Shown one piece after another: positions 3,873-36,855 of a DNA stretch of 38,503 nt. The stretch is from Actinomycetes bacterium. GTDB taxonomy: Bacteria; Actinomycetota; Acidimicrobiia; Acidimicrobiales; RAAP-2. The notes beneath the pieces were generated by a model. That model did no database searches, was not told the origin of the DNA, and worked only from the letters and a program-made list of their open reading frames with translations. How positions within the stretch are numbered: position 1 is the first letter of the stretch; each line of letters opens with the position of its first letter. The translations under genes and the position numbers were made by a program. The DNA is taken from positions 1-38,503 of the forward strand of contig JAKBNI010000009.1 in NCBI GenBank assembly GCA_021831125.1, read 5' to 3'.

Positions 3873-6071
3873 CTATTCGCCCTCGACGACGTGCCGCTCG
3901 CTCATCCGACCCCGTCGGCGACGGCTGTGGTCGATCGGGGGGCTCTCGCCCAGCCGCGCGATCAGGTCCTCCACCTCGTCGAGCCCGACCGCCGGCGACC
4001 AGAGGAAGCCCTGGCCGTAGCGGCAGTTCACGCCGCGCAGCCGGTTGTACTGCGCGGGCGTCTCGATGCCCTCGGCGATCATCATCACGCCGAGTTTGCG
4101 CCCCAGGAGCAAGATGAGCTCCAAGATGGCGTCGCTCTGGGGGCTCGGGCTCGCCGGGCGGACGAAGGACTGGTCGATCTTGATGGCCCTCGGGCGCAGC
4201 TGCACGAGGTACGAGAGCGAGGAGAACCCGGTGCCGAAGTCGTCGAGGGCGATGCCGACGCCGAGGGCCAACAGCTCCTGGATGATCGTGAGGGACTCGG
4301 CGATGTCCTCCAGTGCCACGCTCTCGGTGATCTCCAGGAGCAGGCGGTGCGGGGCGACGTCGTGGTGGCGCAGGGCGCCGCGGACGAGCTGGGCGAGGTT
4401 GCGGTCGTGGAACTGGCGAGCCGAGAGGTTCACGGTCACGTAGGGCGGGTAGCCGTCGGTGCGGGGGAGTCGCGTCATCGCCTCAGCCGCGGAGCGCAGC
4501 GCGAACGCCCCGAGGTCGTAGATGAGGTTCGACTGCTCGGCGAGCGGTATGAAGACGTCGGGCGGCACGGCGCCGCGCTCTGGGTGGTGCCAGCGCATCA
4601 GGGACTCGTAGCCGACGACCTCGCCGTTAGCGAGGTCGATGATCGGCTGGAACGCCATGGACATCTCGCCGCGCTCGAGGGCTCGACTGAGGTCTTGGGC
4701 GAGGGTGAAGCGACTGACCGCCTCCTGGTGCATCGACGGCGTGAAGACGACGACGCGTCCTCGACCCTGGCGCTTGGCCTCGTAGAGGGCGATGTCGGCG
4801 CTCTGGACGAGGGTGGCGACCTCCTCGGAGGAGGGGTCGAAGACGGCGACGCCGACGCTGGCGTGCTGGACGAACGTCGTGCCCCGAAGGCTGAAGGGCG
4901 CCGACATCTCCTCGAGGATCCGTTCGGCGATGACGCGCGCCTCGTCGGCGACGGCCATCTCCTCGACGAGGACCAGGAACTCGTCGCCCCCGAATCGACA
5001 GAGCGTGTCGGTCGACCGGGCGACGCGTCGCAGTCGGTCGGCGATGGCCGACAGCAGTTCGTCGCCGATGACGTGACCGTAGGTGTCGTTGACGCCCTTG
5101 AAGTCGTCGAGGTCGATGAGCAGGACGGCGCCGTAGCCACCGTGTCGTCGGGCCCGGGCGTGGGCCTGGTCGAGGCGATCCTCGAAGAGCGACCGGTTCG
5201 CGAGGCCGGTGAGCGGGTCGTGGAGGGCGCGTTTGGACAGCTCCGCGTTCATCTTGCGCTCCTCGGTGACGTCGCGCTCGGAGAAGACGAAGTACTGGGG
5301 CATCCCCCCGGGTCCGACGGCGGTCGCGCGCGAGACCTCGACGGTGATGATGCGCCCGTCTTTGCGGCGGTAGCGCTTCACGTACCGGGTCTGGGGCGCG
5401 GCTCCGGCGAGGGCCCGGCGGTGGCTCTCCTCGGTGATGCCGACGTCCTCGACGTAGGTGAAGGTCGTGGAGTCGTGTCCGACGAGCTCCTCGCGCGCGT
5501 AGCCGACCATCTCGCACATGGAGTCGTTCACGTCGATGATCCGGTCCTCCAGGTCGGTGAAGGTCATCGGCGCCATGTTCTCGGCGAAGGCGACCCGGAA
5601 CCGCTCGGCGAGCGAGGCGAGTTCGGCCTGGTCGCGATTTCGCTGGGTCACGTCCTGGCCGTTGACGAGGATCCCCTCGATGGCGGGATTGTCGAAGGAG
5701 TTCGTCGCCACGAGCTCGAGGTCCTTCTCGTCCCCGGAGGGCGTCACGACGCGCAGGCTCTCGCGGATCGAGCCGCCGGGTCGCCCCATGAGCTCGGAGA
5801 AGCGCTGGAGGATGCGCTCGCGGTCATCGGGGTGGATGAGTCCCAGTGCGTCGGTGCCGACCCCCTCCTCGGCGCTCAACTCGAAGAACTGCTGGGCGAC
5901 GGGGTTCCCGTAGACGACGAACCCCCCGTGGTTCAGCACGACGATCACGTCCGCCGAGTTGTGGCCGACGGCCCCGAGGGCGAGGAAGCGCTCGGCGGCG
6001 GTGGGATTCGACAGGCGATGGGAGCTCGGCGGGTCGCCCATCGGTCTCCCGCTCATCTCGCTCCCGTCCAT
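3873..6071 (-). CDS. PAS-PAS-GGDEF-EAL cyclic-di-GMP synthase/phosphodiesterase
   Basis: 732 residues, no transmembrane segment. Two PAS domains (about 35-145 and 155-275) precede GGDEF (about 285-445) and EAL (about 460-710). The GGDEF motif is intact (361-365), and the inhibitory I-site RxxD (R352-D355) sits exactly five residues before it, so product-feedback-controlled cyclase activity is likely. In the phosphodiesterase domain the EAL signature is ESL (489-491), but the metal and catalytic set is present: N548, E580, E583, D610-D611 in DDFGTGFSS, K631, E667, E670 and Q687. It should therefore make and degrade c-di-GMP, switched by PAS-sensed signals in the cytoplasm. The start is uncertain: ATGs at 6071, 6056 and 6041 are all possible, and 6056 has a GGGAG. 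It appears to be transcribed alone. Confidence 0.95.
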   Translation of the reverse strand: MDGSEMSGRPMGDPPSSHRLSNPTAAERFLALGAVGHNSADVIVVLNHGGFVVYGNPVAQQFFELSAEEGVGTDALGLIHPDDRERILQRFSELMGRPGGSIRESLRVVTPSGDEKDLELVATNSFDNPAIEGILVNGQDVTQRNRDQAELASLAERFRVAFAENMAPMTFTDLEDRIIDVNDSMCEMVGYAREELVGHDSTTFTYVEDVGITEESHRRALAGAAPQTRYVKRYRRKDGRIITVEVSRATAVGPGGMPQYFVFSERDVTEERKMNAELSKRALHDPLTGLANRSLFEDRLDQAHARARRHGGYGAVLLIDLDDFKGVNDTYGHVIGDELLSAIADRLRRVARSTDTLCRFGGDEFLVLVEEMAVADEARVIAERILEEMSAPFSLRGTTFVQHASVGVAVFDPSSEEVATLVQSADIALYEAKRQGRGRVVVFTPSMHQEAVSRFTLAQDLSRALERGEMSMAFQPIIDLANGEVVGYESLMRWHHPERGAVPPDVFIPLAEQSNLIYDLGAFALRSAAEAMTRLPRTDGYPPYVTVNLSARQFHDRNLAQLVRGALRHHDVAPHRLLLEITESVALEDIAESLTIIQELLALGVGIALDDFGTGFSSLSYLVQLRPRAIKIDQSFVRPASPSPQSDAILELILLLGRKLGVMMIAEGIETPAQYNRLRGVNCRYGQGFLWSPAVGLDEVEDLIARLGESPPIDHSRRRRGRMSERHVVEGE

Positions 6072-10934: not shown

Positions 10935-13115
10935 CTAGGGGGTCGCTCGGCTCCTCAACTCGAAGAGCTCCGCACTCGAGGTCCGCGACACGACCCTCCA
11001 CGAGGGCGACCGGGCGAACTGGTCGGCGAACCTCCAGTACTGGGCCAACGAGGCGTAGTTGTACGCCGCGAGGTACGCGGCGGACTGCTGGTCCGCCAGG
11101 ACGTAGAACCGCGGGTTGTCACCGATGACCGGAGAGGGGACGGACCTGATCAGTCCGGTCAGACCGCTCATGAACTGGCGATAGCTGGCTCGCGCGTCCA
11201 GGGGGTGTGCGAGGTTCGATCCCACCACGTTGGAGGTGACGAGCTCGTTGACGAGGTTGTAGCGCCCTGAGACGCCGGTCGGTGGGCTGGGTGGGGCGCC
11301 GATGATGACGAGATACGAACCCACCGGGGCGGACAGCTCGAACTTAGAGATCGCCGCGACGTCGCCCGGCCTCATCACGTTCACGAAGTCGAGGCCCATG
11401 TCCGCGACCAAGTAGAGACCCAGGAGCGCGACCGTGACCACCGGCCAGAGCACGGCCGACTTGGAGTGGGGGGTGAGGCTGAGCCGACCGGCCAGGATCG
11501 CCAACCAGGGCAACGCGAACAAGACGACGCGGAAGTCGGCCTCGTTCCCGTAGGAGTTGGCGACGAGCAGGCCGGCACCGCTCGCCGCGCAGAGCGCGAG
11601 GCACGCGGTGAGCTGATCGCGGTGACGCGCGATCGAGACGAGAGCGAGCACGCCGATCAAGAGAGCGGACCCGCCTTCGAACAGCCGGACGAGATTGGCG
11701 AGCGAACCCGGCGACGGACCCCCGCCCGCGATGCCCGGTGTTAGGGCGTTCCCGAAGATGTTGAGGAACGCGCTCAGTGAGACGTGCTGCTTCACGTACG
11801 AGAAGTAGATGAGTGCCCACGCAGCCGCCGGCGCGAGGCTGACGACTGGCGCCCACCGAGTCTTCGCCCGTCCGAAGACGACGAGCACCACGAGTCCGAT
11901 GGTGGTCATGTACGGAGAGAGCTGATGGGTGATCGCGTCGGCGATCGACATCGTGAGGATGAGCATCCACCCCGCCGGTGGCAGACCCGGCTCCTCGTCT
12001 CGGTGCGCGAAGACCACCGCGAAGGTGGCGATCGTGAGGAGGAAGCCGGTGGACTGCGGTGAGAAGTAGTCCGCGTCCGCGATCGTGTAGCCGACCACGA
12101 AGACGGTGGCCGCCATCCAGGCCCTGGCGGGACTCCGCAGCACCGCCCTGGCGAGTTGGTACACGACGAGAAGGGTTGCCAGGTCGATGACCGGTGGCCA
12201 CCAGTGAGCGACGGAGATGGGTGAGGAGAGCCCGGCCGTCTTGCACAGCCAGGCCACGCCCGAGAACAGTCCCGGCCACGCCTGGTAGATGTCGATGCTG
12301 GGATTCACCGTTCCGTGCAGCAACACGTACGACGTCACGCCGACGTGCTTGGCGGTCCACGAGTAGCGAGGATCGACGTACGCGATCGCGGGGGTGAGCG
12401 TCAGCATGAGTTGAAGCACCACCACGGGGAGTCCGGTGAAGAGTCCGCCGAGGCGCTGTCCGACGAAGACGGCGCCGGTGACGAGCAGGAGTCCGACGTA
12501 CCACGCGGGCGAGATCGCCCCCAGCAGCCCTGCCCAGCCGGGGGTCAGGGGCCGGATGGCGAGAGCGCTCGACACGACCAGCACCACGCCGACGCCGACG
12601 AGGAGCGACTCGCCGCGTATGAGCGCTCGACGCTGGCGTGCGTCGGGCGACGGGGCGTCGACCCGAGGTCGGTCGACTTGGCGACCGTAACGGACGTGCG
12701 CGCCGGAGGTGGGCTGGAGGAGGCTCAGACCCCGAAGCCGGACGAACGTGACGACAGTGTCGACGTGGACGAGTCCCGCGAGCAGCGCGACGACCCAGAA
12801 CACGTACGGCCCCAGAACCCAGACGCGCAAGAGGACGATGAGCGCCCCGAGAATGAGTGTGAGAGCCAGTCCCAAGGGCGGGGCGAAGCCGACGGCTCGC
12901 TCACCTCTCCACCCAAGGACGGCGAGTGTCGCGGTGCTGAACCCAAAGAGCGCGTAGATGAACACACACCATGCGGCCAGGGCGTGTACCGAGAAGAGCG
13001 CACCGACGAGCGCCCCCAAGAGGAGGGCCAGCGAGGAGAGGGCCGCGACACCGTCTACGACATCGACGTGCGCTGGAGAACGTCCGCCAGGATAGCCACG
13101 TACCCTGTCCAGCAT
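10935..13115 (-). CDS. Large polytopic membrane protein, GT-C-like
   Basis: 726 residues with roughly 14-16 predicted transmembrane segments (my reading) and a C-terminal soluble tail of about 140 residues. The segment DPRYSWTAKHVGVTSYVL, then HGTVNPSIDIYQAWPGLF, resembles actinobacterial multi-pass proteins of surface-glycan loci, where a loop with Asp-Ile-Tyr-x-x-Trp-Pro-Gly follows the first helices. The fold suggests a GT-C polyprenyl-phosphate-sugar-dependent transferase or a polymerase-like protein. The start is the ATG at 13115: no Shine-Dalgarno is present, but a TATAGT -10 box ends seven bases before it, so the mRNA is probably leaderless. The open frame upstream has no membrane character. 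It stands convergent to the acyltransferase gene. Confidence 0.75.
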   Translation of the reverse strand: MLDRVRGYPGGRSPAHVDVVDGVAALSSLALLLGALVGALFSVHALAAWCVFIYALFGFSTATLAVLGWRGERAVGFAPPLGLALTLILGALIVLLRVWVLGPYVFWVVALLAGLVHVDTVVTFVRLRGLSLLQPTSGAHVRYGRQVDRPRVDAPSPDARQRRALIRGESLLVGVGVVLVVSSALAIRPLTPGWAGLLGAISPAWYVGLLLVTGAVFVGQRLGGLFTGLPVVVLQLMLTLTPAIAYVDPRYSWTAKHVGVTSYVLLHGTVNPSIDIYQAWPGLFSGVAWLCKTAGLSSPISVAHWWPPVIDLATLLVVYQLARAVLRSPARAWMAATVFVVGYTIADADYFSPQSTGFLLTIATFAVVFAHRDEEPGLPPAGWMLILTMSIADAITHQLSPYMTTIGLVVLVVFGRAKTRWAPVVSLAPAAAWALIYFSYVKQHVSLSAFLNIFGNALTPGIAGGGPSPGSLANLVRLFEGGSALLIGVLALVSIARHRDQLTACLALCAASGAGLLVANSYGNEADFRVVLFALPWLAILAGRLSLTPHSKSAVLWPVVTVALLGLYLVADMGLDFVNVMRPGDVAAISKFELSAPVGSYLVIIGAPPSPPTGVSGRYNLVNELVTSNVVGSNLAHPLDARASYRQFMSGLTGLIRSVPSPVIGDNPRFYVLADQQSAAYLAAYNYASLAQYWRFADQFARSPSWRVVSRTSSAELFELRSRATP

Positions 13116-13122
13116 GCGAGCA

Positions 13123-13128
13123 ACTATA
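13123..13128 (-). promoter_or_regulatory. Leaderless-type -10 box (TATAGT) of the large membrane protein gene
   Basis: On the minus strand TATAGT is followed by seven bases and then ATG (13115). Transcription would start at or next to the A of the start codon. No Shine-Dalgarno sequence is present. Confidence 0.5.
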
Positions 13129-13694
13129 CATTTTGCCTCTTCGGGCGGGTCTTCGCCGTGTGCGATGTGAGCGACTCCGTCGGGTGGTCCGAGGGCGGGA
13201 CCCAGGGTGACCTCCGAGCTGAACCGACGAGAGCGCGAGCCGGCCGGCTTGTGCATCGATTCATCGCAGATGCGCGGAACCTCAGTCGCGGAAGGCTGTG
13301 GTGGTCGCACGTCGGTGGCCGTCATTGGTCCGTGGGCCGCGACACGCGATGGGTGGTCGCCGGCTCCGTCGGGGCCATCGGGTGGCGTCGTCCTCAATCG
13401 CTGCCGGTTTTGCGGTCTCACGACACGTGTCTCGGCTGGACACGGTGGTATGAGATCCCCGCGAGGTCCGTGGTGAAATGACATCCGAGCGCCCCACGTT
13501 CGCCACGCGGCGACGAGTGGGGACACGAGGGGATGGTCATTCGTCCGGCGACGATCCCGTGGCGGGTTGGCCCTCCGGGCCCCGGCGCCGCACGTTGTGC
13601 GCTGCGCGAGCGTCGCCGCGATGGGTCGATGCCGTCGGCGAAGGGCTCCTGCCGGGGGTCTCGAGGCGCAGTCTGGTCGATGGCGTCCGGTTGG

Positions 13695-18382: not shown

Positions 18383-19672
18383 TCAGTCGGACGCGACGTC
18401 CGCGTCTTCGATGACGGCGGCGCGGTACCGCCGGACAACCCGTGGCAGGAAGAAGATTCCAAGGAGGCCGGCTTCGACCACGCTGGCCACCCCTACGGCG
18501 TTGATCCCTAGGCGTCCGATGAGCGCGAGGATCACCCCGAGGTACACAACCAGGCTGAAGAGGTCGCGGGCCGTCATCCACCACACACGTCGGTCAAGCC
18601 ACGCGAACGCGGAGTAGAAGATCGATACGGCGTACCCGGGAAGTGCGATGATGATCAATCGCATGAGGAGAGTGCCCTTCGCCGCGTACTCGGGCCCGAA
18701 TATGCGAAGTACCCACGGTGCGGCGATGAGGCCTCCCACCACGATGGCCGACGTCACGATGAGGCCCGCGCGGAGAGCCGTCCGTGTGTGTCGTCGGAAG
18801 GCCTGAGGGTCGGTCGACGCCTCCACGACGAATGACCGGCTGATGCTGTTGAGGACGAGAATGGCGCCCCACGCGATCTGGGCAGTGAGGTAGTAGTGAG
18901 CGTTGGCCACCGGCCCGAGCCGTGAGATCACTATGAACGCGACGATGGATGGCTCCATCACCGTTATGAGCTGGGAGACGTATCGGGCAACGGTGAGACC
19001 CAGCATCTCCCGGGGGCTGGGCATGGGCTCGTGGGGAACGCTGTGGATCTCATGGGCGGGGATGCGCTTGGTGAACAGGATCCAGTTCACCGCCAGGACG
19101 ATGGCGATCACCGGGGCGTTCCAGGCGACGAATATGCCGTATTGCGAAGAGACGGAGAGGAACAGGGGGAGGAGCACGAGCTTGGCCGTGGAGAACGCCA
19201 TGCTCTGGACCGGGACCCATCGAGCCTCCCGGAGGCCCACCAAGATCGGCTCTTGGAGAGAGAAGATCGTCCAGAGCACCGTGGCGACTACGAAGAGGAC
19301 TCGCCACTCGAGAGCTCGGGGAACCGTCGACGCGCTCAAGTGCAAAGAGACGTAGGCCGTGGCAATGGCGATTGCGGACAGGGAGCTCGCGATGTAGGCA
19401 CGACGCACGAACCGGCCCGCTCGGGGGCCCGCGACGGGGAGGAACCTCTCGAAAGTGACCCCGAAGCTGAGTTGGGCGAGGATGGAGAGGAGAGACATGA
19501 CCGCCAGCTCGGCACTGGCGCGTCCGACGAACCTCGCCGGCGCACGGTGGGCGGCCAGCGCCCAAAACCCCAGGCCGATTAGGGCCGACCCCGCACCGGA
19601 CACGATGAGCGACGTCGCGTTCTTGATGAGGCTCGTGACGTGGCGCGATCTCATGAGGAGAGCCCCCGACAT
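18383..19672 (-). CDS. Wzx-like polysaccharide flippase
   Basis: 429 residues with about 12 transmembrane helices and little soluble sequence, as in MOP-superfamily O-antigen/polysaccharide exporters. Typical parts are an N-terminal amphipathic start 'SLIKNATSLIVSGAGSALIG', a central charged loop (KRIPAHEIHSVPHEPMPSP) between the two six-helix halves, and 'SRSFVVEAS' and 'IFGPEYAAKGTLLMRL' in the second half. Wzx proteins flip undecaprenyl-linked repeat units across the membrane. No Wzy polymerase is recognised with certainty, although the large membrane protein at 10935 could fill that role. ATGs at 19672 and 19654 are both possible; neither has a good ribosome-binding site. It starts 72 bases after the upstream glycosyltransferase. 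Confidence 0.88.
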   Translation of the reverse strand: MSGALLMRSRHVTSLIKNATSLIVSGAGSALIGLGFWALAAHRAPARFVGRASAELAVMSLLSILAQLSFGVTFERFLPVAGPRAGRFVRRAYIASSLSAIAIATAYVSLHLSASTVPRALEWRVLFVVATVLWTIFSLQEPILVGLREARWVPVQSMAFSTAKLVLLPLFLSVSSQYGIFVAWNAPVIAIVLAVNWILFTKRIPAHEIHSVPHEPMPSPREMLGLTVARYVSQLITVMEPSIVAFIVISRLGPVANAHYYLTAQIAWGAILVLNSISRSFVVEASTDPQAFRRHTRTALRAGLIVTSAIVVGGLIAAPWVLRIFGPEYAAKGTLLMRLIIIALPGYAVSIFYSAFAWLDRRVWWMTARDLFSLVVYLGVILALIGRLGINAVGVASVVEAGLLGIFFLPRVVRRYRAAVIEDADVASD

Positions 19673-26095: not shown

Positions 26096-27049
26096 TCAGT
26101 GCGGGTGGCGGGCGCGCCAGGCGTCCTCGACGATCCCCTCGAGAGAGGGGTGCTCGGGCCGCCAACCGAGCACCTCGCGCGCGCGTGCGTTGGAGGCGAC
26201 GGCCGAGGCCGGGTCGCCCGGCCGGCGAGGCGCGTGGCGCACGTTCAACCGTCGACCGGTCACCCGCTCGACGGCGTCGATCACCTCGAGGTTCGAGTAC
26301 CCCACGCCGTTGCCGAGGTTGGCCACGATCTCGGGGTCGTCGTCGAGCGCCTCGATGGCCAGCACGTGCGCCGCCGCGAGGTCGACGACGTGGACGTAGT
26401 CGCGAACGCAGGTGCCGTCGCGCGTCGGGTAGTCGTCGCCGTAGAGATCCAGGCCCGGACGAAGGCCGGCGGCGGCGTCGAGGGCGAGCGGTATCAGGTG
26501 GATCTCGGGGTCGTGTCGCTCGGGGTGGGCGGGAGTGGCCCCCGCCGCGTTGAAGTAGCGCAGGCTCGCGGCCCGCAGCCGGCCGCTCACGCTGAGCCAG
26601 TGGAGGCACTCCTCCACGATCAGCTTCGACTGGCCGTAGGGGCTCTCGGGCCGGGTCGGGCGGTCCTCGACGATGGGCATGACGTCCTGGGCGCCGTAGA
26701 CCGCCGCCGAGGACGAGAACACGACCTTCGGACAACCGGCCCGCACGAGGGCTCGCAGGAGCGAGACCGTCTCTCCCACGTTGGTCACGAGGAACTCCTC
26801 GGGCTCGACCATGGAGAGTGCGGGCTCGATTCGACCCGCGAAGTGCACGCAGGCGTCGATGGTCCCGAGGTCGCTGACGAGGCTCTCGTCGCCACAGCGC
26901 CCCTCGACGAACGTCGCGCGCGTCGGCACGTTCTCGCGTCGACCGTGGCTCAGGTCGTCGAGGGCGATCACGTCGTGGCCGGCGTCGAGCAGCAGCTCCG
27001 CGGTCGTCGAGCCGATGAAACCCGCAGCCCCGGTGACCAGGACTCTCAC
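26096..27049 (-). CDS. galE: UDP-glucose 4-epimerase
   Basis: 317 residues, slightly under the usual 330-340. Extended short-chain dehydrogenase features: NAD-binding GAAGFIG (7-13), 'ALDDLSHGRREN', 'CVHFAGRIEPALSM', catalytic 'SSSAAVYG' (Ser-113/114) and SPYGQSK with Tyr-138 and Lys-142, then 'RYFNAAGATP', 'YPTRDGTCVRDYVHV' and 'NLGNGVGYSN', all typical of GalE. It interconverts UDP-glucose and UDP-galactose (or the GlcNAc forms) to supply sugar donors for the glycosyltransferases in the window. The GTG start at 27049 overlaps the stop of a 12-codon upstream ORF as GTGA. No well-placed Shine-Dalgarno is visible for galE itself, so translation may be coupled to the upstream ORF. Confidence 0.93.
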   Translation of the reverse strand: MRVLVTGAAGFIGSTTAELLLDAGHDVIALDDLSHGRRENVPTRATFVEGRCGDESLVSDLGTIDACVHFAGRIEPALSMVEPEEFLVTNVGETVSLLRALVRAGCPKVVFSSSAAVYGAQDVMPIVEDRPTRPESPYGQSKLIVEECLHWLSVSGRLRAASLRYFNAAGATPAHPERHDPEIHLIPLALDAAAGLRPGLDLYGDDYPTRDGTCVRDYVHVVDLAAAHVLAIEALDDDPEIVANLGNGVGYSNLEVIDAVERVTGRRLNVRHAPRRPGDPASAVASNARAREVLGWRPEHPSLEGIVEDAWRARHPH

Positions 27050-27220: not shown

Positions 27221-28021
27221 GTGCCGCTATCCGACGCCGCCTCCTTCAGCGAGCAGGAGCTGCGCGAGGCCTTCGAGTCGGGCCAGTTCCTGCTCGTCTA
27301 CCAGCCGATCTTCGATCTCCAGACTCGCGCGTTCGTCGGTGTGGAGGCCCTGATCAGGTGGAAGCACCCGCAAAGGGGACTCCTCGGGCCCGACGCGTTC
27401 ATCGACGTGCTCGAAGCGGGCGACTTCGCGCGGCCCATCGCGCAGTGGACGCTCGAGACCGCGTGCGACCAGGGGGCCGTCTGGCACGACTCGGGCTACC
27501 GCTTCCACGTCTCGGTGAACGTGTCGGAGCGCCAGTGGGGTGCGGGTGGAATCGTCGACGACGTCCGTGACGCGCTCGGTGCCAGTCGCTTCGACCCCGC
27601 ACTGTTGGTGCTCGAGGTGTCTCGAGCCACCCTCGAGGCCGACCCGAGCGCGCGGGAGCGACTGGGCGCGCTGGCGCGACTGGGTGTGCACCGTGCCGTC
27701 GACGACTTCGTCCCCGACGAGGGTGCGCTCGAGTACCTGGCGGGCCTCGGCGTCGACGTGGTGAAGATCGACCGAGACTTCCTCGCTCGACGTGCGGGTT
27801 CGGGCAGCCTGGGTGAGGCCGTGGCTACCCTCGCGGCCCGTGCCGAGTCCTTGGGAATCTCGGTCATCGCCGCGGGCATCGAGGATGACGACCAGCGAGA
27901 GGTGCTCGCGCGTGAGCGCATCGCGACCGGCCAGGGCTTTGGCCTCTCCGAGCCCTACGAGGCCGACGAGATCGACCACGTCCTCGAGGACTTCTCGATC
28001 TTCTCTGGCAAGCCCCTCTGA
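27221..28021 (+). CDS. Degenerate EAL-domain protein (probably non-catalytic)
   Basis: 266 residues from the GTG at 27221, with GAGGAGGG just upstream. A single EAL domain fills the protein. Retained: EAL itself (E42), N100, E132, D161-D162, K182, E221 and Q238. Lost: the loop-6 glutamate of ExxE (R135), the loop sequence after DDF (VPDEGA instead of the GTGYSS type), and the general-base glutamate of the AEGxE motif (A218 in IAAGIE). Substitutions at these places in EAL proteins abolish or cripple c-di-GMP hydrolysis while binding can persist, so a receptor or adaptor role is more likely than phosphodiesterase. Only four bases separate it from the hybrid histidine kinase gene, implying joint function. 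A TAGCGT at 27175-27180 is a possible -10. Confidence 0.9.
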   Translation: MPLSDAASFSEQELREAFESGQFLLVYQPIFDLQTRAFVGVEALIRWKHPQRGLLGPDAFIDVLEAGDFARPIAQWTLETACDQGAVWHDSGYRFHVSVNVSERQWGAGGIVDDVRDALGASRFDPALLVLEVSRATLEADPSARERLGALARLGVHRAVDDFVPDEGALEYLAGLGVDVVKIDRDFLARRAGSGSLGEAVATLAARAESLGISVIAAGIEDDDQREVLARERIATGQGFGLSEPYEADEIDHVLEDFSIFSGKPL

Positions 28022-28025
28022 GCCC

Positions 28026-30500
28026 ATGGTGCGACGCGCGACCCCTCCCGAGTCCGCGAGAGCCGGGGACGTCGACGCTCCGGAGAGGGCGGCGCGCCTG
28101 AGGGGGCGCTACGTCGACTTTCGTGCCGCGAACCGTCACGCCGGCCCAGGCCCGCGATCGGGGTCGGAGGCCCTGGTCGACGCCTTCGCCGCCCTCGCGG
28201 CGGAGGAGTTCGCGGACTGGGTGGTCGTCGACGTGATGGACGTCGACGGGGCGACGGTCCGGGCTCAGCTCGTGGCGGGACCGCGATCGGGGGATGGTGA
28301 CCCGCTTGACGTGGTGCCCGGACTGGCCGGCGTGGTCGACCGGGTGATCGCGTCGGGCGTGACCGAGGCCTGGCCGACCTCGGGGCCCGACGCGCGTGCC
28401 GTGGTGGTGGGCCTGCGGGTGAAGGACCGCGCGTTCGGTGCGGTCGGGTTCGTTCTGCGCCCCGGACGGGCCCCCTACGGGGCGAGCGACGTGGTGGCGG
28501 CCGAGGAAGCCGCGTGGGGTCTCGCGTCGATGATCGAGCGACGGCTCCTGCTCGACGAGAGCCGACAGGCGCTGCGGGCGACCCAGAGGATGGCGCGTCA
28601 GCTCCATCAGCTGTTCGCCGCGACGATGAACGTGTCGGGCGCGCGCGACGAGGCCGAGGTGGCCGCCGCCGTGGTCCAGAGCGCCCGGCGAGTCTTCGAC
28701 GCCGACGTCGCCGTGATCGACCTCGACGACGGCGGGGTGGCCGCGTGGATCGGACGGGGAATGGCGCGCGCGACCCCGGGACTGCGCGACGACCTCACGG
28801 TGCCCCCCGGATCCGGCGAGCGGGCCCTCGCCGCGGGGGAGTGGCTGGTCGCCGGAGTCGGGGGCGGCGCACCGGGCCACCGCGGTGTCCTCGCCGTGAG
28901 ACGGCGGGCCTCGGGCTTCTCGTCCGAGGACGTCGAGATCGCCACCCTGCTCGCCCAGGCGGCGTCGGCGGCTCTCGAGTCACGGGCCCTGGCGCGTGGG
29001 GTCGAGCGGAGCGAGGCGCGCCTGAGGGCCCTCGTCGAGGCCGCACCGATCGGCATCCTCGAGGCGAGCACCGACGGGTCGCCGCGCTGGTGGAACCACG
29101 CCGCGGAACGTGTGCTCGGCTGGCCCGCTCCCGGGTCGGCCGTGGTACCCGAGGTTCCCGCGGCCCTCGCCCGAGCGATCGACGACCTTGCTGCTGAAGC
29201 GCGGGTCGGGGGTGGACCGGCCCTGCGCGACCTCGTCGACGTCGAGGTGCGCGGTCGGGTCCGCGATCTCACGACGTCGGCGGCACTGGTCGCGTTGCCC
29301 GAGCAGGCCGACCCCACCCTCATGGTGCTGATCGACGACGTCACCGACCACCGCCAGCTCAAGGCGGAGGTGGCCCACGCCCAGCAGATGGAGCTACGGG
29401 GTCAGGTGGCGAGCAGTGTCGCCCACGACTTCAACAACCTCATCACTCTCATCACGGGCTACTCCGAGATCCTCGAGCGCTCCTTGGGCGATGACGACCT
29501 GGCCGAGATGGTGCGCGACATCCAGGCGACGGCCTCGCGCGCGTCGCGCCTGACCGCCCAGCTCCAGAGCATCGGTCGCGCCGAGGAGCTCGAGCCGGTG
29601 GACCTGGTCCCCGCCGACGTGATCCGCGCCAACGCCGAGGTTATCGAGCGCGTCGTTGGTCGGGACGTGGAGCTCGAGCTGGCCCTCGAGGACGACGCGG
29701 GCGTGGTGCGCGTCGACGCGGCCCAGTTCGAGCAGATGATCTTGAACCTCGCGGTCAACGCGCGCGACGCGATGCCCGACGGCGGGAGCCTTCGCGTGGT
29801 CGTGGGCCGCGCGCAGGTGACCGCTGAGCGGGCGGGGGAGCTCGGGATCGTGCCGGGGCCGTACGTCGCGGTGACGGTGGCCGATACGGGGGTCGGAATG
29901 GACGAGGAGACTATGGCCCACTGCTTTGACGCGTTCTTCACCACCAAGGGGCCCCTGCGCGGGACGGGCCTCGGACTGGCATCGGCCCGCCGGCTCGTCG
30001 ACGCGAGCGGTGGGGCGATCACGGTGCGCAGCGCCCCCGGGGTCGGGACGACCTTCGAGGCCCTCTTCCCGTTGACCCGTGAGGCGGTCGTCGTCGAGCT
30101 CTCCAGCGCCGCGCCCACGCCCACGCGGGGCTTCGCCACCGTCCTCGTGGCCGAGGACGACGACGGACTGCGACGGCTCATGGCCCAGGTCCTCAGCCGC
30201 AACGGCTACGAGGTGTTGACCGGGGCCACCGGAGAGGAGGCGCTCGCGATCGCCGAGCGCTACGAGGGGCCCATCGACCTGCTCGTGAGCGACGTCGTGC
30301 TCGGGGGCATGACCGGGGCCGAGCTCGCGTGCGCCCTCCAGGGACGCCGGGCCGGGATGCGGGCGCTGCTCACCTCGGGCACCGCGGACGCCTCGGTCCT
30401 CGAGGGGCTCGTGCCGGGCACGGGGGCGTTCCTGCCCAAGCCGTTCCGTCCGAGCGCCCTGATCGAAGGGGTCCACGACCTCCTCACGCGACGCAACTGA
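28026..30500 (+). CDS. Soluble hybrid histidine kinase (GAF-GAF-PAS-HisKA-HATPase-REC)
   Basis: 824 residues, no transmembrane segment. Two GAF-like sensor domains (about 45-175 and 195-320), a PAS domain (about 328-445), then the H-box VAHDFNNLITLITGYSE with phosphoacceptor His-467. ATP-binding motifs follow: N-box NLAVNARDAM (N578), DTGVGM, 'CFDAFFTTKGP', and GTGLGLASA. A C-terminal receiver domain has acidic residues VAEDDD (710-712), phosphoacceptor Asp-756 in VSDVVLG, and Lys-805 in LPKPF. This layout matches cytosolic hybrid kinases that relay phosphate to a separate partner; no output domain or Hpt domain is present. It is coupled to the degenerate EAL gene. The orphan regulator at 31376-32074 receives phosphate on its own Asp and could be reached directly or through a phosphotransfer step. 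Confidence 0.93.
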   Translation: MVRRATPPESARAGDVDAPERAARLRGRYVDFRAANRHAGPGPRSGSEALVDAFAALAAEEFADWVVVDVMDVDGATVRAQLVAGPRSGDGDPLDVVPGLAGVVDRVIASGVTEAWPTSGPDARAVVVGLRVKDRAFGAVGFVLRPGRAPYGASDVVAAEEAAWGLASMIERRLLLDESRQALRATQRMARQLHQLFAATMNVSGARDEAEVAAAVVQSARRVFDADVAVIDLDDGGVAAWIGRGMARATPGLRDDLTVPPGSGERALAAGEWLVAGVGGGAPGHRGVLAVRRRASGFSSEDVEIATLLAQAASAALESRALARGVERSEARLRALVEAAPIGILEASTDGSPRWWNHAAERVLGWPAPGSAVVPEVPAALARAIDDLAAEARVGGGPALRDLVDVEVRGRVRDLTTSAALVALPEQADPTLMVLIDDVTDHRQLKAEVAHAQQMELRGQVASSVAHDFNNLITLITGYSEILERSLGDDDLAEMVRDIQATASRASRLTAQLQSIGRAEELEPVDLVPADVIRANAEVIERVVGRDVELELALEDDAGVVRVDAAQFEQMILNLAVNARDAMPDGGSLRVVVGRAQVTAERAGELGIVPGPYVAVTVADTGVGMDEETMAHCFDAFFTTKGPLRGTGLGLASARRLVDASGGAITVRSAPGVGTTFEALFPLTREAVVVELSSAAPTPTRGFATVLVAEDDDGLRRLMAQVLSRNGYEVLTGATGEEALAIAERYEGPIDLLVSDVVLGGMTGAELACALQGRRAGMRALLTSGTADASVLEGLVPGTGAFLPKPFRPSALIEGVHDLLTRRN

Positions 30501-30548: not shown

Positions 30549-31379
30549 ATGTTGTTCTGGACCAGTCGTACGCCGCACCGAGTCCAGCGGCTGGCGTGGG
30601 CCCTCGTGGCGGTGGCGGTCATCGCGGCGACGGGGACGACCCTGCCGGCGCGCCGCCTCGTCAACCTGAACGGCCACTACCCCCTCGGGGTTCCCAACCC
30701 CGCCGAGCCCTCCGGCTACGGCCCGCCGGGCCCGACGGCGCTCGCCGGCTACCGGCTGGCCTACGTCGCGGACTTCGGGGGCCACGTCCTGCCCCGGGGG
30801 TGGGACGCGTTCGCCGGCCAGCCCGGTGGCGCACCCGGGGACGTGGACGCCGTCTCGCACGTCGTGGTCTCGGGCGGGATGCTCCAGCTGCAGATCTACC
30901 GGGACCCGCGCTACGGGAACCGCTGGGTCACCGCCGGGACGTGCCAGTGCGGGGTGACCCGGGTCTACGGCGCCTACTTCGTCCGATCGCGCTACACGGC
31001 GGCCGGACCCGACCAGGCCGAGCTGCTGTGGCCGGCCTCGAACCAGTGGCCCCCGGAGATCGACTTCAACGAGACCGGGGGGTCGATCGTCTCGACGACG
31101 ACGTCCTTCCACTGGGGTGGCGCGAACACCATCGTGCGCAGCGCCATCCACATCGACATGACCCAGTGGCACACCTGGGGGGTCATCTGGTCGAAGCACT
31201 ACATCCTCTACACCGTCGACGGCCGGGTCTGGGGGAGCTACCGGGTCGCCGCCAACATCCCCCGGGTGCCCATGACGCTCAACTTCGTCCAGCACCAGCT
31301 GTGCTCCAAGGGCCGTCAGTGCCCGACGAAGCCGACCCAGATGGACGTCGACTGGGTCGCGGAGTACGTGGCGCGCTAG
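30549..31379 (+). CDS. Secreted or anchored GH16-type glycanase, CQCG subgroup (copy 3)
   Basis: 276 residues. A single N-terminal hydrophobic segment (about 15-31, LAWALVAVAVIAATGTT) acts as signal peptide or anchor, with no Thr linker. The GH16 domain has TCQCG (C132, C134), 'LLWPASNQWPPEIDFNE' with E170, D172 and E175, 'MTQWHTWGVIWSK' and C-terminal cysteines in LCSKGRQC. It aligns along its length with the two CQCG copies in the polysaccharide region but is more GC-rich and sits about 8 kb away, between a kinase and a response regulator. Its stop shares CTAG with the convergent regulator gene. Probable surface-glycan remodelling enzyme, possibly under control of the adjacent signalling genes. 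Confidence 0.88.
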   Translation: MLFWTSRTPHRVQRLAWALVAVAVIAATGTTLPARRLVNLNGHYPLGVPNPAEPSGYGPPGPTALAGYRLAYVADFGGHVLPRGWDAFAGQPGGAPGDVDAVSHVVVSGGMLQLQIYRDPRYGNRWVTAGTCQCGVTRVYGAYFVRSRYTAAGPDQAELLWPASNQWPPEIDFNETGGSIVSTTTSFHWGGANTIVRSAIHIDMTQWHTWGVIWSKHYILYTVDGRVWGSYRVAANIPRVPMTLNFVQHQLCSKGRQCPTKPTQMDVDWVAEYVAR

Positions 31380-32074
31380 CGAGGGGGCTCGAAGCGGTAG
31401 CCGACGCCGCGCACCGTGGTGATCCACGTCGGGCGATCCGGGTCGGCCTCGAGCTTGATGCGCAGCCGGCGCACGTGCTCGGTGACGGTCGCCTCGTTCT
31501 GCCACTCGGGCGAGGACGCCCAGACGTGCTCGAGCAGCTGGGCCCGGGAGAAGACCTGGCGGGGCGACTTCGCCATGAAGGCGAGGAGGGCGAACTCCCG
31601 GGACGTGAGGTCGACGACCCGGCCGTTGAGGCGGACCTCGTGGGTGGTCTCGTTGACCTGGAGGTCCCCGAAGGAGATCGTGGGCGCCTCGATGCGGTGG
31701 TGGGCCGTGCTCACCCCGGCCCGGCGTAGGACCGACTCGACCCGGGCGGACATCTCCCCGAGGCTGAAGGGCTTGACGACGTAGTCGTCGGCCCCGAGCT
31801 TCAGCCCCGCGATGCGCTCGGTCTCGAGGCCCCGCCCGGTGAGGAAGATCACCGGGACGTCGCTGAGGAGACGGATCTCGCCGAGGAGCTCGCGGCCGTC
31901 CTCCTCGCCGAGCACGATGTCCAGGATCACCAGGTCGGGCTCGTTGCTGGAGGTCAGCTGGAGGGCCCGGACGCTGTCGTGGGCGACCGAGACCTCGTAG
32001 CCCTCGCCGGCGAGGTGGGTCTCGAGCATCCGGGTGATCTCCGGGTCGTCGTCGATGACCAGGATGGCGGTCAC
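31376..32074 (-). CDS. OmpR/PhoB-type response regulator (orphan)
   Basis: 232 residues from the GTG at 32074 (CGAGG seven bases upstream); an upstream in-frame ATG reads non-conserved sequence. Receiver domain: 'ILVIDDDPEITRML' with acidic residues D8-D10, phosphoacceptor D52 in VILDIVLG, Thr in IFLTGRG and Lys in YVVKPF. A winged-helix DNA-binding domain follows, with 'VVDLTSREFALLAFMAKSP', 'VFSRAQLLEHVW' and 'TVTEHVRRLRIKLE', then 'WITTVRGVGYRF', all canonical. No sensor kinase is adjacent in an operon. The nearest kinase is the hybrid protein at 28026-30500 on the other side of the GH16 gene. Transcribed divergently from the GT-C operon across 157 bases, so it could control that operon. 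Confidence 0.95.
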   Translation of the reverse strand: MTAILVIDDDPEITRMLETHLAGEGYEVSVAHDSVRALQLTSSNEPDLVILDIVLGEEDGRELLGEIRLLSDVPVIFLTGRGLETERIAGLKLGADDYVVKPFSLGEMSARVESVLRRAGVSTAHHRIEAPTISFGDLQVNETTHEVRLNGRVVDLTSREFALLAFMAKSPRQVFSRAQLLEHVWASSPEWQNEATVTEHVRRLRIKLEADPDRPTWITTVRGVGYRFEPPR

Positions 32075-34601: not shown

Positions 34602-36145
34602 GGCGCACGAGCCTCCGCTCACGGGTCCTCGAGGGGCGCCCGCTGCTGCCCCGCGCGCTCGTCGAGCGGCTCGACCGACCGGTCCGCCCCTTCGCGATCG
34701 TGATGGGCTGGATCGGCTCGACGATGGTCTTCTTGCTCGTCGCGACCGGCCTCGGCGGCCCGACCGAGGGCGACTCCGCCGAGGTGGTCTACGGCACCTG
34801 GGCGGTCGCCCACGGGCACCTGGCGTGCGTCTACCCCGCGACCGGGGGCCACCTGCCCGTCGGGCTCGCCGACCCCTTCGCCCTCGCGGCGCCCCTCTAC
34901 GCCGTCGTCTCGGGCGTCATCGCGGCGGCGCTGCGCATCGGCCACGGCGTGGCCTTCCCCTCGGGCCACGCCCTCGGGCCGAGCTGCGTGAACGGCTTCA
35001 ACGCGATGTACCACTGGTCGACGACCTCGGCGGCGATCCTGCCGACGGTGCGCCTGGGCTACGTCACCTGGGCCCTGCTGCTCGCAGGGGTCACCTACCT
35101 GGTGCGCTCGACGCCCCTGCGCGCGACGGGCTGGGAGGTCGCGGCGGGCTTCCTCGTCGCCCTCGCGCCACCGGTCGTGATGTGCCTCACCTACTACTTC
35201 CACCCCCAGGACCTCCTCGCGATGGCCCTCGTCCTGGTGGCGGCCGGGGCGTGGCTGCGCGGGCACCACCTGGCCTGCGGCGTCTGGCTGGGTCTCGCCC
35301 TCACCGCTCAGCAGTTCGCCGTGCTCGCGGTGGTGGCCCTGCTCGTGCTCTCGGCGCGCGAGCGGGTCGTCCGGCTGCTCGGCGGGCTGGTCGCGGCCGT
35401 CGCCGTCGTCGACGGGACCTTCGTCGCCGCGAGCGGGCTGCGCGCGGTGAAGACGGTCCTCTTCGGCTCGAGCCGGGTCGGCTCGTCGGTCACCGCGCAC
35501 GGGGGGACGGTCGTCTTCGCGCTCGGCCTCCACGGGGTGGCCGACTTCCTGCTCGCCCGGGTCGCCCCGATCGTGGCGGCAGCCCTCGTCGCCTGGCTCG
35601 TGCGCCGTCGGGTCGGACGCTCGCCGATCGCGGTGGTCGGGGCGCTCTCTGCGGCGATGCTGTGCCGCCTGGTGTTCGAGGTCAACGTCTACGGCTACTA
35701 CTTCATGGCCGTCGTCGTGGGCGTCGTCCTGCTTGAGGTCCTGCGCCGCCAGGTCGGGCGCGACGTCATGGCCCTCGTGGGCCTGTTCATCGTGTTCTTC
35801 GACCCCGAGCACATCGCGCTCGTCGCCAACCTGACGACCTACGGCCTCTCGCTCTACTACGACCTGCCGATCGTGGTGCTCGCCCTCGGCGTCGCCCTCT
35901 TCCTCTTCGACGCGGTGCGCAGGCGGTTCTCGCCGGCCCTCGTCGTCTGGCTCGGGTTCGTGGCCCTCGCCGGCGAGTCCCATCTCTGGAACCGCTACAA
36001 CCCGCTCTGGAACCTCCCGGAGTGGGCGTGGCAGGTGGTGCTGGTGGCCCTCCTCGGGGTCATCCTGGCCCGTCGCCTGCGCGAGGCCCGGAGCGACGAG
36101 CCAGCCGACGCCCCGGGCGCCCTCGAGACGAGCGCGCTCGTCTAG
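34598..36145 (+). CDS. GT-C/GT87-like membrane glycosyltransferase
   Basis: 515 residues from the GTG at 34598, overlapping the prepilin peptidase stop by four bases. About 11-12 transmembrane helices. The first external loop has '[20 protein letters not shown]' with acidic residues at the position of the GT-C catalytic Asp/Glu, and a later segment '[19 protein letters not shown]' followed by '[20 protein letters not shown]' resembles the DUF2029/GT87 group of polyprenyl-phosphate mannosyl and arabinosyl transferases. Last gene of the three-gene operon; its stop shares the CTAG palindrome with the convergent DUF429 gene. Presumed to transfer a sugar on the outer face of the membrane. Confidence 0.82.
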
Positions 36146-36855
36146 AAGACGAACTCCATGCGCAGCCCCGTCGAGTCCCACTCGGGCTCGCGCGGGATTC
36201 GCCGGGCGCCGTGGCCGAAGACCCGCCGGGCGGTCCACAGCAGGGCCATCGCGTCGAGCTGGTGGCGCAGCCCCACGCCGCCGGGCGGGTCGCGCAGGGC
36301 GTTATCGATCCCCCCGGGGACGTGCGAGTCCAGGACGTCGACGCGCTCGTCGCGGCCCTCGGCCAGGCGCTTGGAGCGTCGCATCGAGGTGTCGCGGTTC
36401 AGCTGGTAGAAGCTGAGCTCGGGGTTGCCCTCGAAGACGACGCGCTGGCGAAAGGGCGACATCTCCAGCGCCACCTCGCGGTAGCGGGGCAGGAGGGTCG
36501 CGGTGATCGCGTCGAGGCCCCCCTCCTGCCAGGTCATGGTCCCTTCGAGGACGGCCCGGGTAGGGGCGTTGTGGACGGCGGCGCCGCGGACCCCGAGGAG
36601 CCGACGCGCCTCCGCGTCGCACTGGCGCGGCGGGTCGCCCGGGGCGTCGCGGTAGCCGACGGGGGCGTTCACGATGAGCAGCTCGAAGGCCGGGCGCTCG
36701 TCCAGGATCTCGAGGAACGTCGGGTAGACCCGGGGCCGCTCGGGGGCGAACGTGGCGCCCTGGACCTTGGCGGCCTGGACGAGCCAGCCCGGCGGGCACG
36801 GGGTGACCGAGGCGATGACGTGATAGGGGAGAGTGGGTCCGCGATGCAAACTCAT
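36142..36855 (-). CDS. DUF429-family protein (predicted RNase H-like fold)
   Basis: 237 residues. The segment 'FELLIVNAPVGYRD', followed by 'RQCDAEARRLLGVRGAAVHN' and 'APTR', matches the DUF429 signature (an Asp/Asn-x-Pro-x-Gly turn, Arg-x-Cys-Asp, Ala-Arg, then Leu-Gly and Pro-x-Arg), as do 'ELSFYQLNRD' (the E-x-x-F-x-x-Leu-Asn motif) and 'DAMALLWTARR' near the end. The usual Asp-x-Pro has become Asn-x-Pro. Function unknown; the family is predicted to have a nuclease-like fold. The ATG at 36855 has no Shine-Dalgarno but a TATAAC box lies eight bases upstream, inside the end of pilT. Confidence 0.8.
   Translation of the reverse strand: MSLHRGPTLPYHVIASVTPCPPGWLVQAAKVQGATFAPERPRVYPTFLEILDERPAFELLIVNAPVGYRDAPGDPPRQCDAEARRLLGVRGAAVHNAPTRAVLEGTMTWQEGGLDAITATLLPRYREVALEMSPFRQRVVFEGNPELSFYQLNRDTSMRRSKRLAEGRDERVDVLDSHVPGGIDNALRDPPGGVGLRHQLDAMALLWTARRVFGHGARRIPREPEWDSTGLRMEFVF

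Follow-up and report, generated by a model that had tools for sequence, protein, structure and literature searches.

What can an EAL-domain protein do that has lost the residues for cutting cyclic diguanosine monophosphate (c-di-GMP), when its gene stands immediately ahead of a hybrid histidine kinase? The question is raised by contig JAKBNI010000009.1 (assembly GCA_021831125.1) of an Actinomycetes bacterium of the Acidimicrobiales (RAAP-2 in the GTDB lineage), of which positions 1 to 38,503, hereafter the window, were analysed along with 99 genomes of the genus; the host genome is 2.0 Mb in size and 87% complete. Three genes of the window are proposed to form a signalling cassette, i.e. the degenerate EAL protein, here EAL* (27221-28021, + strand), the hybrid kinase (28026-30500, +), and a convergent response regulator of the OmpR/PhoB type (31376-32074, −), the last of which was missing from the account given in the initial annotation of this DNA. 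EAL* is probably the part through which the neighbouring kinase reads c-di-GMP, since the residues for cutting are lost, the residues for binding are kept, and the kinase is adjacent nearly everywhere that EAL* was found in the genus. In the fuller reading, to which we give a probability of about 0.58, EAL* would be a receptor that binds c-di-GMP without hydrolysing it and controls the kinase in trans, the neighbouring regulator providing the output.

Residues lost and kept in EAL*

The EAL* gene encodes a standalone protein of 266 amino acids and starts at a GTG that is preceded by a good ribosome-binding site, GGAGAGGAGGG. EAL was the only Pfam domain matched at E 0.001 (176 bits, profile positions 2-236 of 236), with no PilZ domain, and the AlphaFold2 model (predicted local distance difference test score, pLDDT, 88) had as its top PDB match 3n3t, an EAL domain with c-di-GMP; MorA and RocR were also matched. 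The ExL motif is present within the fold, with E42 and L44 invariant in 45 sequences. These and the following residue counts refer to the 45 EAL* sequences that are complete, each from a different genome and the window included; locus L139, with an N gap in its EAL*, is left out.

Catalytic positions were placed by alignment to MorA and MucR. The loop-6 glutamate position, which we take to be that of RocR E268, is occupied by R135 (27623-27625, +); it is Glu in none of the 45 EAL* (Q 27, R 7, L 3, Y 3, A 2, G 1, V 1, H 1) and Glu in 9/9 GGDEF-EAL paralogs of the genus. At the general-base position (RocR E352) stands A218 (27872-27874, +), with S in 31, A in 13 and T in 1 of the 45, and again Glu in all nine paralogs. 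Both losses had been named in the initial annotation and recur in every EAL* sequence. Its statement that the DDFGTG-type loop was lost holds for the second half of the motif only: in residues 161-166 (27701-27718, +; within VDDFVPDEG) GTG has become V-P-D, and D161, D162 and F163 are kept. Over the 45 sequences D161 is found in all, D162 in 42, and GTG in none, the T position being P in 42/45 EAL* and T in 9/9 genus paralogs.

The retention of several ligand and metal residues, likewise claimed before, extends across the genus. Q28, E42, L44, R46, N100, E132, D161, K182, E221 and Q238 are invariant in the 45 EAL*, i.e. 10 of a set of 11 EAL ligand/metal residues chosen with reference to EAL structures, against 40 of 253 columns overall (hypergeometric p ~3e-8); E42, N100, E132 and D161 are presumably the metal ligands. 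This holds in sequences whose identity to the window protein falls to ~41%. The gene is under purifying selection, with ratios of nonsynonymous to synonymous substitution (dN/dS) of 0.07-0.23 in five pairs. Given three losses in all 45 sequences, purifying selection and a conserved gene pair, the degeneration of EAL* is more than chance. By its sequence, EAL* lacks the general-base Glu, the loop-6 Glu and the full DDFGTG that mark an active EAL phosphodiesterase, and has the pattern of a FimX/LapD-type receptor, with catalytic residues gone and ligand-contact residues kept.

EAL* additionally ends in a specific tail, residues 255-266 (LEDFSIFSGKPL; 27983-28018, +). When the ends of the 45 open reading frames (ORFs) were compared, they read FSGKPL (28), FSGRPL (11), FTGEPL (2), FSGKPI, FSGQPL and FSGKPLG (1 each), one being frame-shifted, so that FSG[KR]P[LI] terminates 40/45. 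The tail was not found in the nine genus paralogs with both catalytic Glu.

Pairing with a hybrid kinase and a regulator

The kinase of 824 amino acids has the order GAF-GAF-PAS-HisKA-HATPase-REC, both GAF matches lying below the Pfam cut-off, and starts at an ATG 4 nt past the EAL* stop. No transmembrane-like stretch was found in a hydropathy scan; ORFs, Pfam and hydropathy thus bear out the earlier description of an EAL gene 4 bases upstream of a soluble GAF-GAF-PAS hybrid kinase. H467, N578, D620 and D756 are invariant in 42/42 kinases of the EAL* clade, two of which, from contig edges (L147 and L148), are counted among the 42 and not among the 40 paired kinases. Judged by sequence, it has the phosphoacceptor His, the N and G boxes and the REC Asp of a hybrid histidine kinase.

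A profile of EAL* gave 45 matches over the 99 genus genomes, one per genome, at 344-438 bits and in open frames of 271-414 amino acids, except for the 783-amino-acid run-on frame of the window; long GGDEF-EAL frames scored at most 339 bits. With a 46th copy in G017, broken by an N gap, standalone EAL* is present in 46/99 genus genomes. The initial annotation had staked its proposal on conservation of the pairing, and in 45 of the 46 loci EAL* is indeed followed directly by a related kinase gene in the same orientation; in the exception, G009, the contig stops after EAL*, and a kinase is found at the cut end of another contig. The gap between EAL* and kinase matches is 6-461 nt, except in L117, whose kinase is split in two and whose gap is 1673 nt, and the stop-to-start spacing is −4 to 5 nt in the window's group of six plus four others. 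Frame changes, possibly assembly errors, seem to break the EAL*-kinase junction in L106 (G043) and the kinase in L117 (G014). Around the nine genus paralogs (L124-L132) no match to the kinase was found at E 1e-10 on pieces of 3.6-17 kb. The nearest named relatives are four metagenome-assembled genomes labelled Actinomycetes bacterium, and three remoter EAL relatives carry the labels Acidimicrobiaceae, Acidimicrobiia or Acidimicrobiales.

Fused or adjacent pairs had been suggested as a further check. The adjacent pairs are conserved; a reading of 11 outside kinases turned up no fusion (twelve loci outside the genus were fetched, and the reading covered all but L183). Open frames of up to 1835 amino acids had suggested EAL*-kinase fusions there, a reading that was rejected: by eye, the extra N-termini are transmembrane or GAF sequence, or run-on in G+C-rich DNA. 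The EAL profile found nothing fused in these 11 kinases, its sole match (L174) lying upstream of the kinase open frame. Five short-frame EAL matches (L168-L172), considered as possible standalone EAL* of other genera, were discarded, with no match to this kinase at E 1e-10 on the fetched pieces.

The third gene is convergent with the kinase and encodes an OmpR/PhoB-type regulator (Pfam Response_reg 90 bits, Trans_reg_C 88 bits). Its ORF is open to 32203, and the probable start is the GTG at 32074 (residue 44), since the homology of many relatives begins there. The convergent regulator is present at 43/43 EAL* loci whose contig extends far enough, in 8/9 EAL*-less genus loci, the contig of the ninth ending, and in 10/12 loci outside the genus, where it was not found on the fetched pieces of the other two; identity to the window copy is 51-85% over all these loci. 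The initial annotation had EAL* feeding a phosphorelay, which found no support: no HPt match was found at E 0.01 in the own genome, to which the search was confined and which is 87% complete (controls gave a signal in 8/14). An HPt phosphorelay from the kinase is therefore unsupported, and direct transfer from kinase to adjacent regulator is favoured; ordinary phosphotransfer fits, since the partner conserved at these loci is an OmpR/PhoB-type regulator, convergent with the kinase.

Origin of EAL* and changes in the kinase

In a 52-row EAL tree, which took 31 EAL*, all 31 formed one clade with a value of 100 in the Shimodaira-Hasegawa-like approximate likelihood ratio test (SH-aLRT), next to or within the EALs of a genus GGDEF-EAL protein, in which both catalytic Glu are kept. 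In the kinase tree (51 rows) the nine EAL*-less genus kinases were one clade (100/100), and the paired kinases together with the two contig-edge kinases stood on the other side. When rooted with outside kinases (35 rows, i.e. 16 of the 42 EAL*-clade kinases, the full set of 9 unpaired kinases and 10 of the 11 outside ones), paired and unpaired kinases were sister clades with SH-aLRT 90 and 99. Cut, broken or gapped kinases (L102, L113, L117, L139, L143, L146, L154 and L162) were left out of the kinase tree and the column tests, L111 being a piece without kinase. The outside kinases often have extra N-terminal sequence, with transmembrane-like stretches in three of three tested.

Kinase/regulator pairs without EAL* exist both inside and outside the genus, and EAL* was therefore probably added once to a pre-existing pair. 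As read from these trees, an EAL domain would have become detached from the genus GGDEF-EAL protein and been set before the existing pair. A single gain is the simplest account; EAL* may alternatively have been gained at the base and then lost once.

Eight kinase columns (184, 187, 194, 195, 209, 463, 466 and 500) are at least 95% fixed in the 40 paired kinases, whereas the nine unpaired ones share the residue in at most 25% of cases. Four of them fall within 12 residues of one helix ahead of the second GAF (153-204 in the model), and residues 184-195 (28575-28610, +) are a candidate site for coupling to EAL*. R184, Q187, H194 and Q195 are invariant in the paired kinases and mostly other residues in the unpaired ones, and when 12-residue windows were ranked by variability difference, those from 187 and 184 came first and third of 640. 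Across the whole EAL* clade H194, Q195, Q187 and S463 are fixed, and elsewhere they are found in 1/20, 1/20, 0/20 and 0/20, respectively, one outside row being gapped at 187, 194 and 195. S463, close to the phosphoacceptor H467 (29412-29426, +, for the two), is present in 42/42 of the clade, the position being Gly in 9/9 unpaired and 11/11 outgroup kinases. Since the outside kinases mostly have R at 194 (7/11) and 195 (9/11) and always Gly at 463 (11/11), H194, Q195 and S463 seem to be derived states. None of the outside kinases has Q187, and position 466 was changed in the unpaired clade instead. The first GAF, in turn, is missing from 15/51 kinases by a length criterion, all 15 of which have EAL*, and it changes state at least 5 times on the kinase tree.

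Proposed function of the cassette, and its surroundings

Degenerate EAL receptors, non-binding EAL adaptors, c-di-GMP-binding kinases and a PilZ adaptor on a kinase are already described; an EAL-kinase pair of the present kind was not recognised in the literature searched, most subscription literature lying outside the search. FimX and LapD are multidomain proteins that are not known to sit in kinase/regulator cassettes, and EAL* resembles them in an EAL fold with lost catalytic residues but consists of one domain, which ends in a conserved tail specific to EAL*. FimX, several catalytic residues of which are gone, binds c-di-GMP with very weak activity (PMC3527489), and LapD is counted as an EAL-domain receptor (PMC10519070). 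EAL* keeps the DD of the DDFGTG motif, whereas in FimX the motif is missing (PMC5301497).

The closest solved kinase core by sequence is that of CckA, and ShkA and CckA were among the fold matches of a kinase model with a low predicted template modelling score (pTM). At what we take, with numbering placed via H322, to be the positions of the CckA c-di-GMP residues Y514/K518/W523 in the CA domain, the present kinase has R655/D659/A664, and c-di-GMP input, if any, would thus more likely come via EAL*. Among these residues, Y514 is also given in PMC5189948. CckA and ShkA of Caulobacter respond to c-di-GMP, binding it themselves, unlike the proposed arrangement here. In Pseudomonas aeruginosa, HapZ is a separate c-di-GMP receptor that acts in trans on the histidine kinase SagS and alters phosphotransfer, as is proposed here (PMC10333796 for the response of CckA and ShkA and for HapZ). 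HapZ, however, belongs to the PilZ proteins, and HptB receives the signal of SagS, whereas here the receptor would be an EAL protein gene-linked to its kinase, with no HPt found.

Loss of catalytic residues with ligand-residue retention, strict linkage, a single clade, and changes in the kinase that fall on the EAL* side of its tree are features of the sequences themselves; for the function we infer loss of hydrolysis, binding of c-di-GMP, physical contact, a direction of the effect, and the regulator as output. EAL*, presumably dead in catalysis, would still bind c-di-GMP and dock on its dedicated kinase, at best guess on the helix near residues 184-195 and with the C-terminal tail contributing; it would thereby shift the balance of kinase and phosphatase, after which the regulator would alter transcription.

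Three other functions were weighed against a receptor acting on the kinase. EAL* could contact the kinase as a protein partner and bind no c-di-GMP at all, in the manner of YdiV and STM1697, standalone and catalytically dead EALs that do not bind c-di-GMP either and work through contact with other proteins (PMC10333796), and the conserved tail would suit such a role. Those proteins, however, target transcription factors, whereas EAL* is linked to a kinase and keeps its ligand residues, and the invariance of 10/11 ligand/metal positions in 45 sequences at down to ~41% identity is hard to explain if no ligand is bound; we regard an adaptor of this sort as rather unlikely. Unlikelier still is that EAL* is a c-di-GMP receptor for some other target, its gene being merely co-inherited or co-transcribed with that of the kinase. 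The spacing, which varies between −4 and 135 nt over the 27 readable loci with starts chosen mechanically, and the sister clade of related kinases without EAL* would fit that account; adjacency in 45/46 loci despite divergence, varying flanks and at least 5 first-GAF changes on the kinase tree speaks against it, as do the fixed kinase changes on the EAL* side.

We find it very improbable that EAL* is a slow or altered-mechanism phosphodiesterase that lowers c-di-GMP locally near the kinase. The presumed metal ligands E42, N100, E132 and D161 are kept, and the residual activity of FimX mentioned above offers a precedent, but the general base, the loop-6 Glu and GTG are lost in 45/45. Moreover, changing the general-base Glu to Ala (E703A) abolished the activity of TBD1265, as reported in PMC12943098.

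The genomic setting of c-di-GMP signalling is less decisive. GGDEF matches occur in 46/46 EAL* genomes. PilZ is found in 0/46 of these and in 7 of the other 53, or 0/46 versus 7/34 when the other GGDEF-bearing genomes are compared (p 0.002, kinship ignored), 4 of the 7 being above the Pfam cut-off. A kinase match at E 1e-40 is present in 0/19 GGDEF-less and 66/80 GGDEF-bearing genomes (Fisher p ~8e-12, kinship ignored), a count that includes distant kinases and in which the best ten or fewer candidates per genome were scored. The 19/99 genus genomes in question, of 1.0-2.2 Mb, gave no GGDEF match at E 1e-10 (G006, G013, G016, G019, G022, G040, G052, G055, G056, G111, G125 and G129-G136), and c-di-GMP signalling seems lost or absent in them.

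Several observations weigh against EAL* as the c-di-GMP input of the kinase. Shared descent and genome size confound the associations with GGDEF and PilZ, and EAL* is not the sole candidate receptor, since MshEN proteins occur in 39/46 EAL* genomes (66/99 in the genus). R135, V164 and other changes in EAL* might also alter ligand affinity. EAL* is present in only 46/99 genus genomes, and nine related kinases have no EAL* beside them, which makes it dispensable for the kinase/regulator core; in other genera none was found among 298 genomes of the order, for which the best nine or fewer candidates per genome were considered. Two genomes, G128 (93% complete), with an EAL*-clade kinase at a contig edge, and G117 (80% complete), with a contig-edge kinase 72% identical to that of the window, yielded no EAL*, either through assembly gaps or through losses. 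The range of spacing given above points the same way. As for the kinase changes, other clades have 0 to 10 private fixed columns (10 in one two-row clade), without clustering in a helix, and the presence of EAL* and the changes count as one event, since both map to a single split of the tree.

If EAL* does act as the receptor of the kinase, the three genes would give a compact, testable link between c-di-GMP and two-component signalling where the 46 EAL* genomes show c-di-GMP synthase domains and no PilZ was detected. The 46 genomes with EAL*, the nine EAL*-less kinases of the sister clade and the outside relatives, three with transmembrane-like N-termini, would make a natural series, in which the gain of a second-messenger input in trans by a kinase becomes testable through H194, Q195, S463 and the EAL* tail. 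A broader idea, tentative and with the odds somewhat against it, is that a largely PilZ-less genus of actinobacteria turned a two-component pair, of which some relatives from other families have a membrane-anchored portion at the N-terminus, into a cytoplasmic c-di-GMP sensor by fixing a dead EAL, detached from a GGDEF-EAL protein, in trans as the sensory subunit of the kinase. The three genes would then be a main readout from c-di-GMP to transcription in these cells.

Upstream of EAL* and divergent from it lies a sugar-nucleotide epimerase gene (26096-27049, −; Pfam Epimerase 167 bits), divergent upstream in many relatives as well. Between kinase and regulator, a GH16-like gene (30549-31379, +; Pfam Glyco_hydro_16 35 bits) is present in the window and in L094, the nearest relative, in both of which the kinase-regulator gap is 882-884 nt; in L095-L098, which have no intervening GH16-like gene, it is 9-15 nt. 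A second GH16-like copy stands past the epimerase gene in several relatives. Since glycosyltransferase, prepilin peptidase and T2SSE genes are also found in the neighbourhood, the output may, as a guess that takes in the epimerase too, be surface polysaccharide or pili. An MshEN-domain protein of the pilus ATPase type is encoded ~1 kb from EAL* in four relatives (G014:C22, G012:C66, G101:C43 and G106:C137; L117, L119, L149 and L157).

Elsewhere in the window, a PAS-PAS-GGDEF-EAL protein of 732 amino acids (3873-6071, −) is a full-length c-di-GMP turnover protein. Four long ORFs had no Pfam family at E 0.001, i.e. 121-1557, 10935-13526, 18383-19672 and 34619-36238 (all −), the last of which is matched at 50-53% identity by sequences of L095 and L096.

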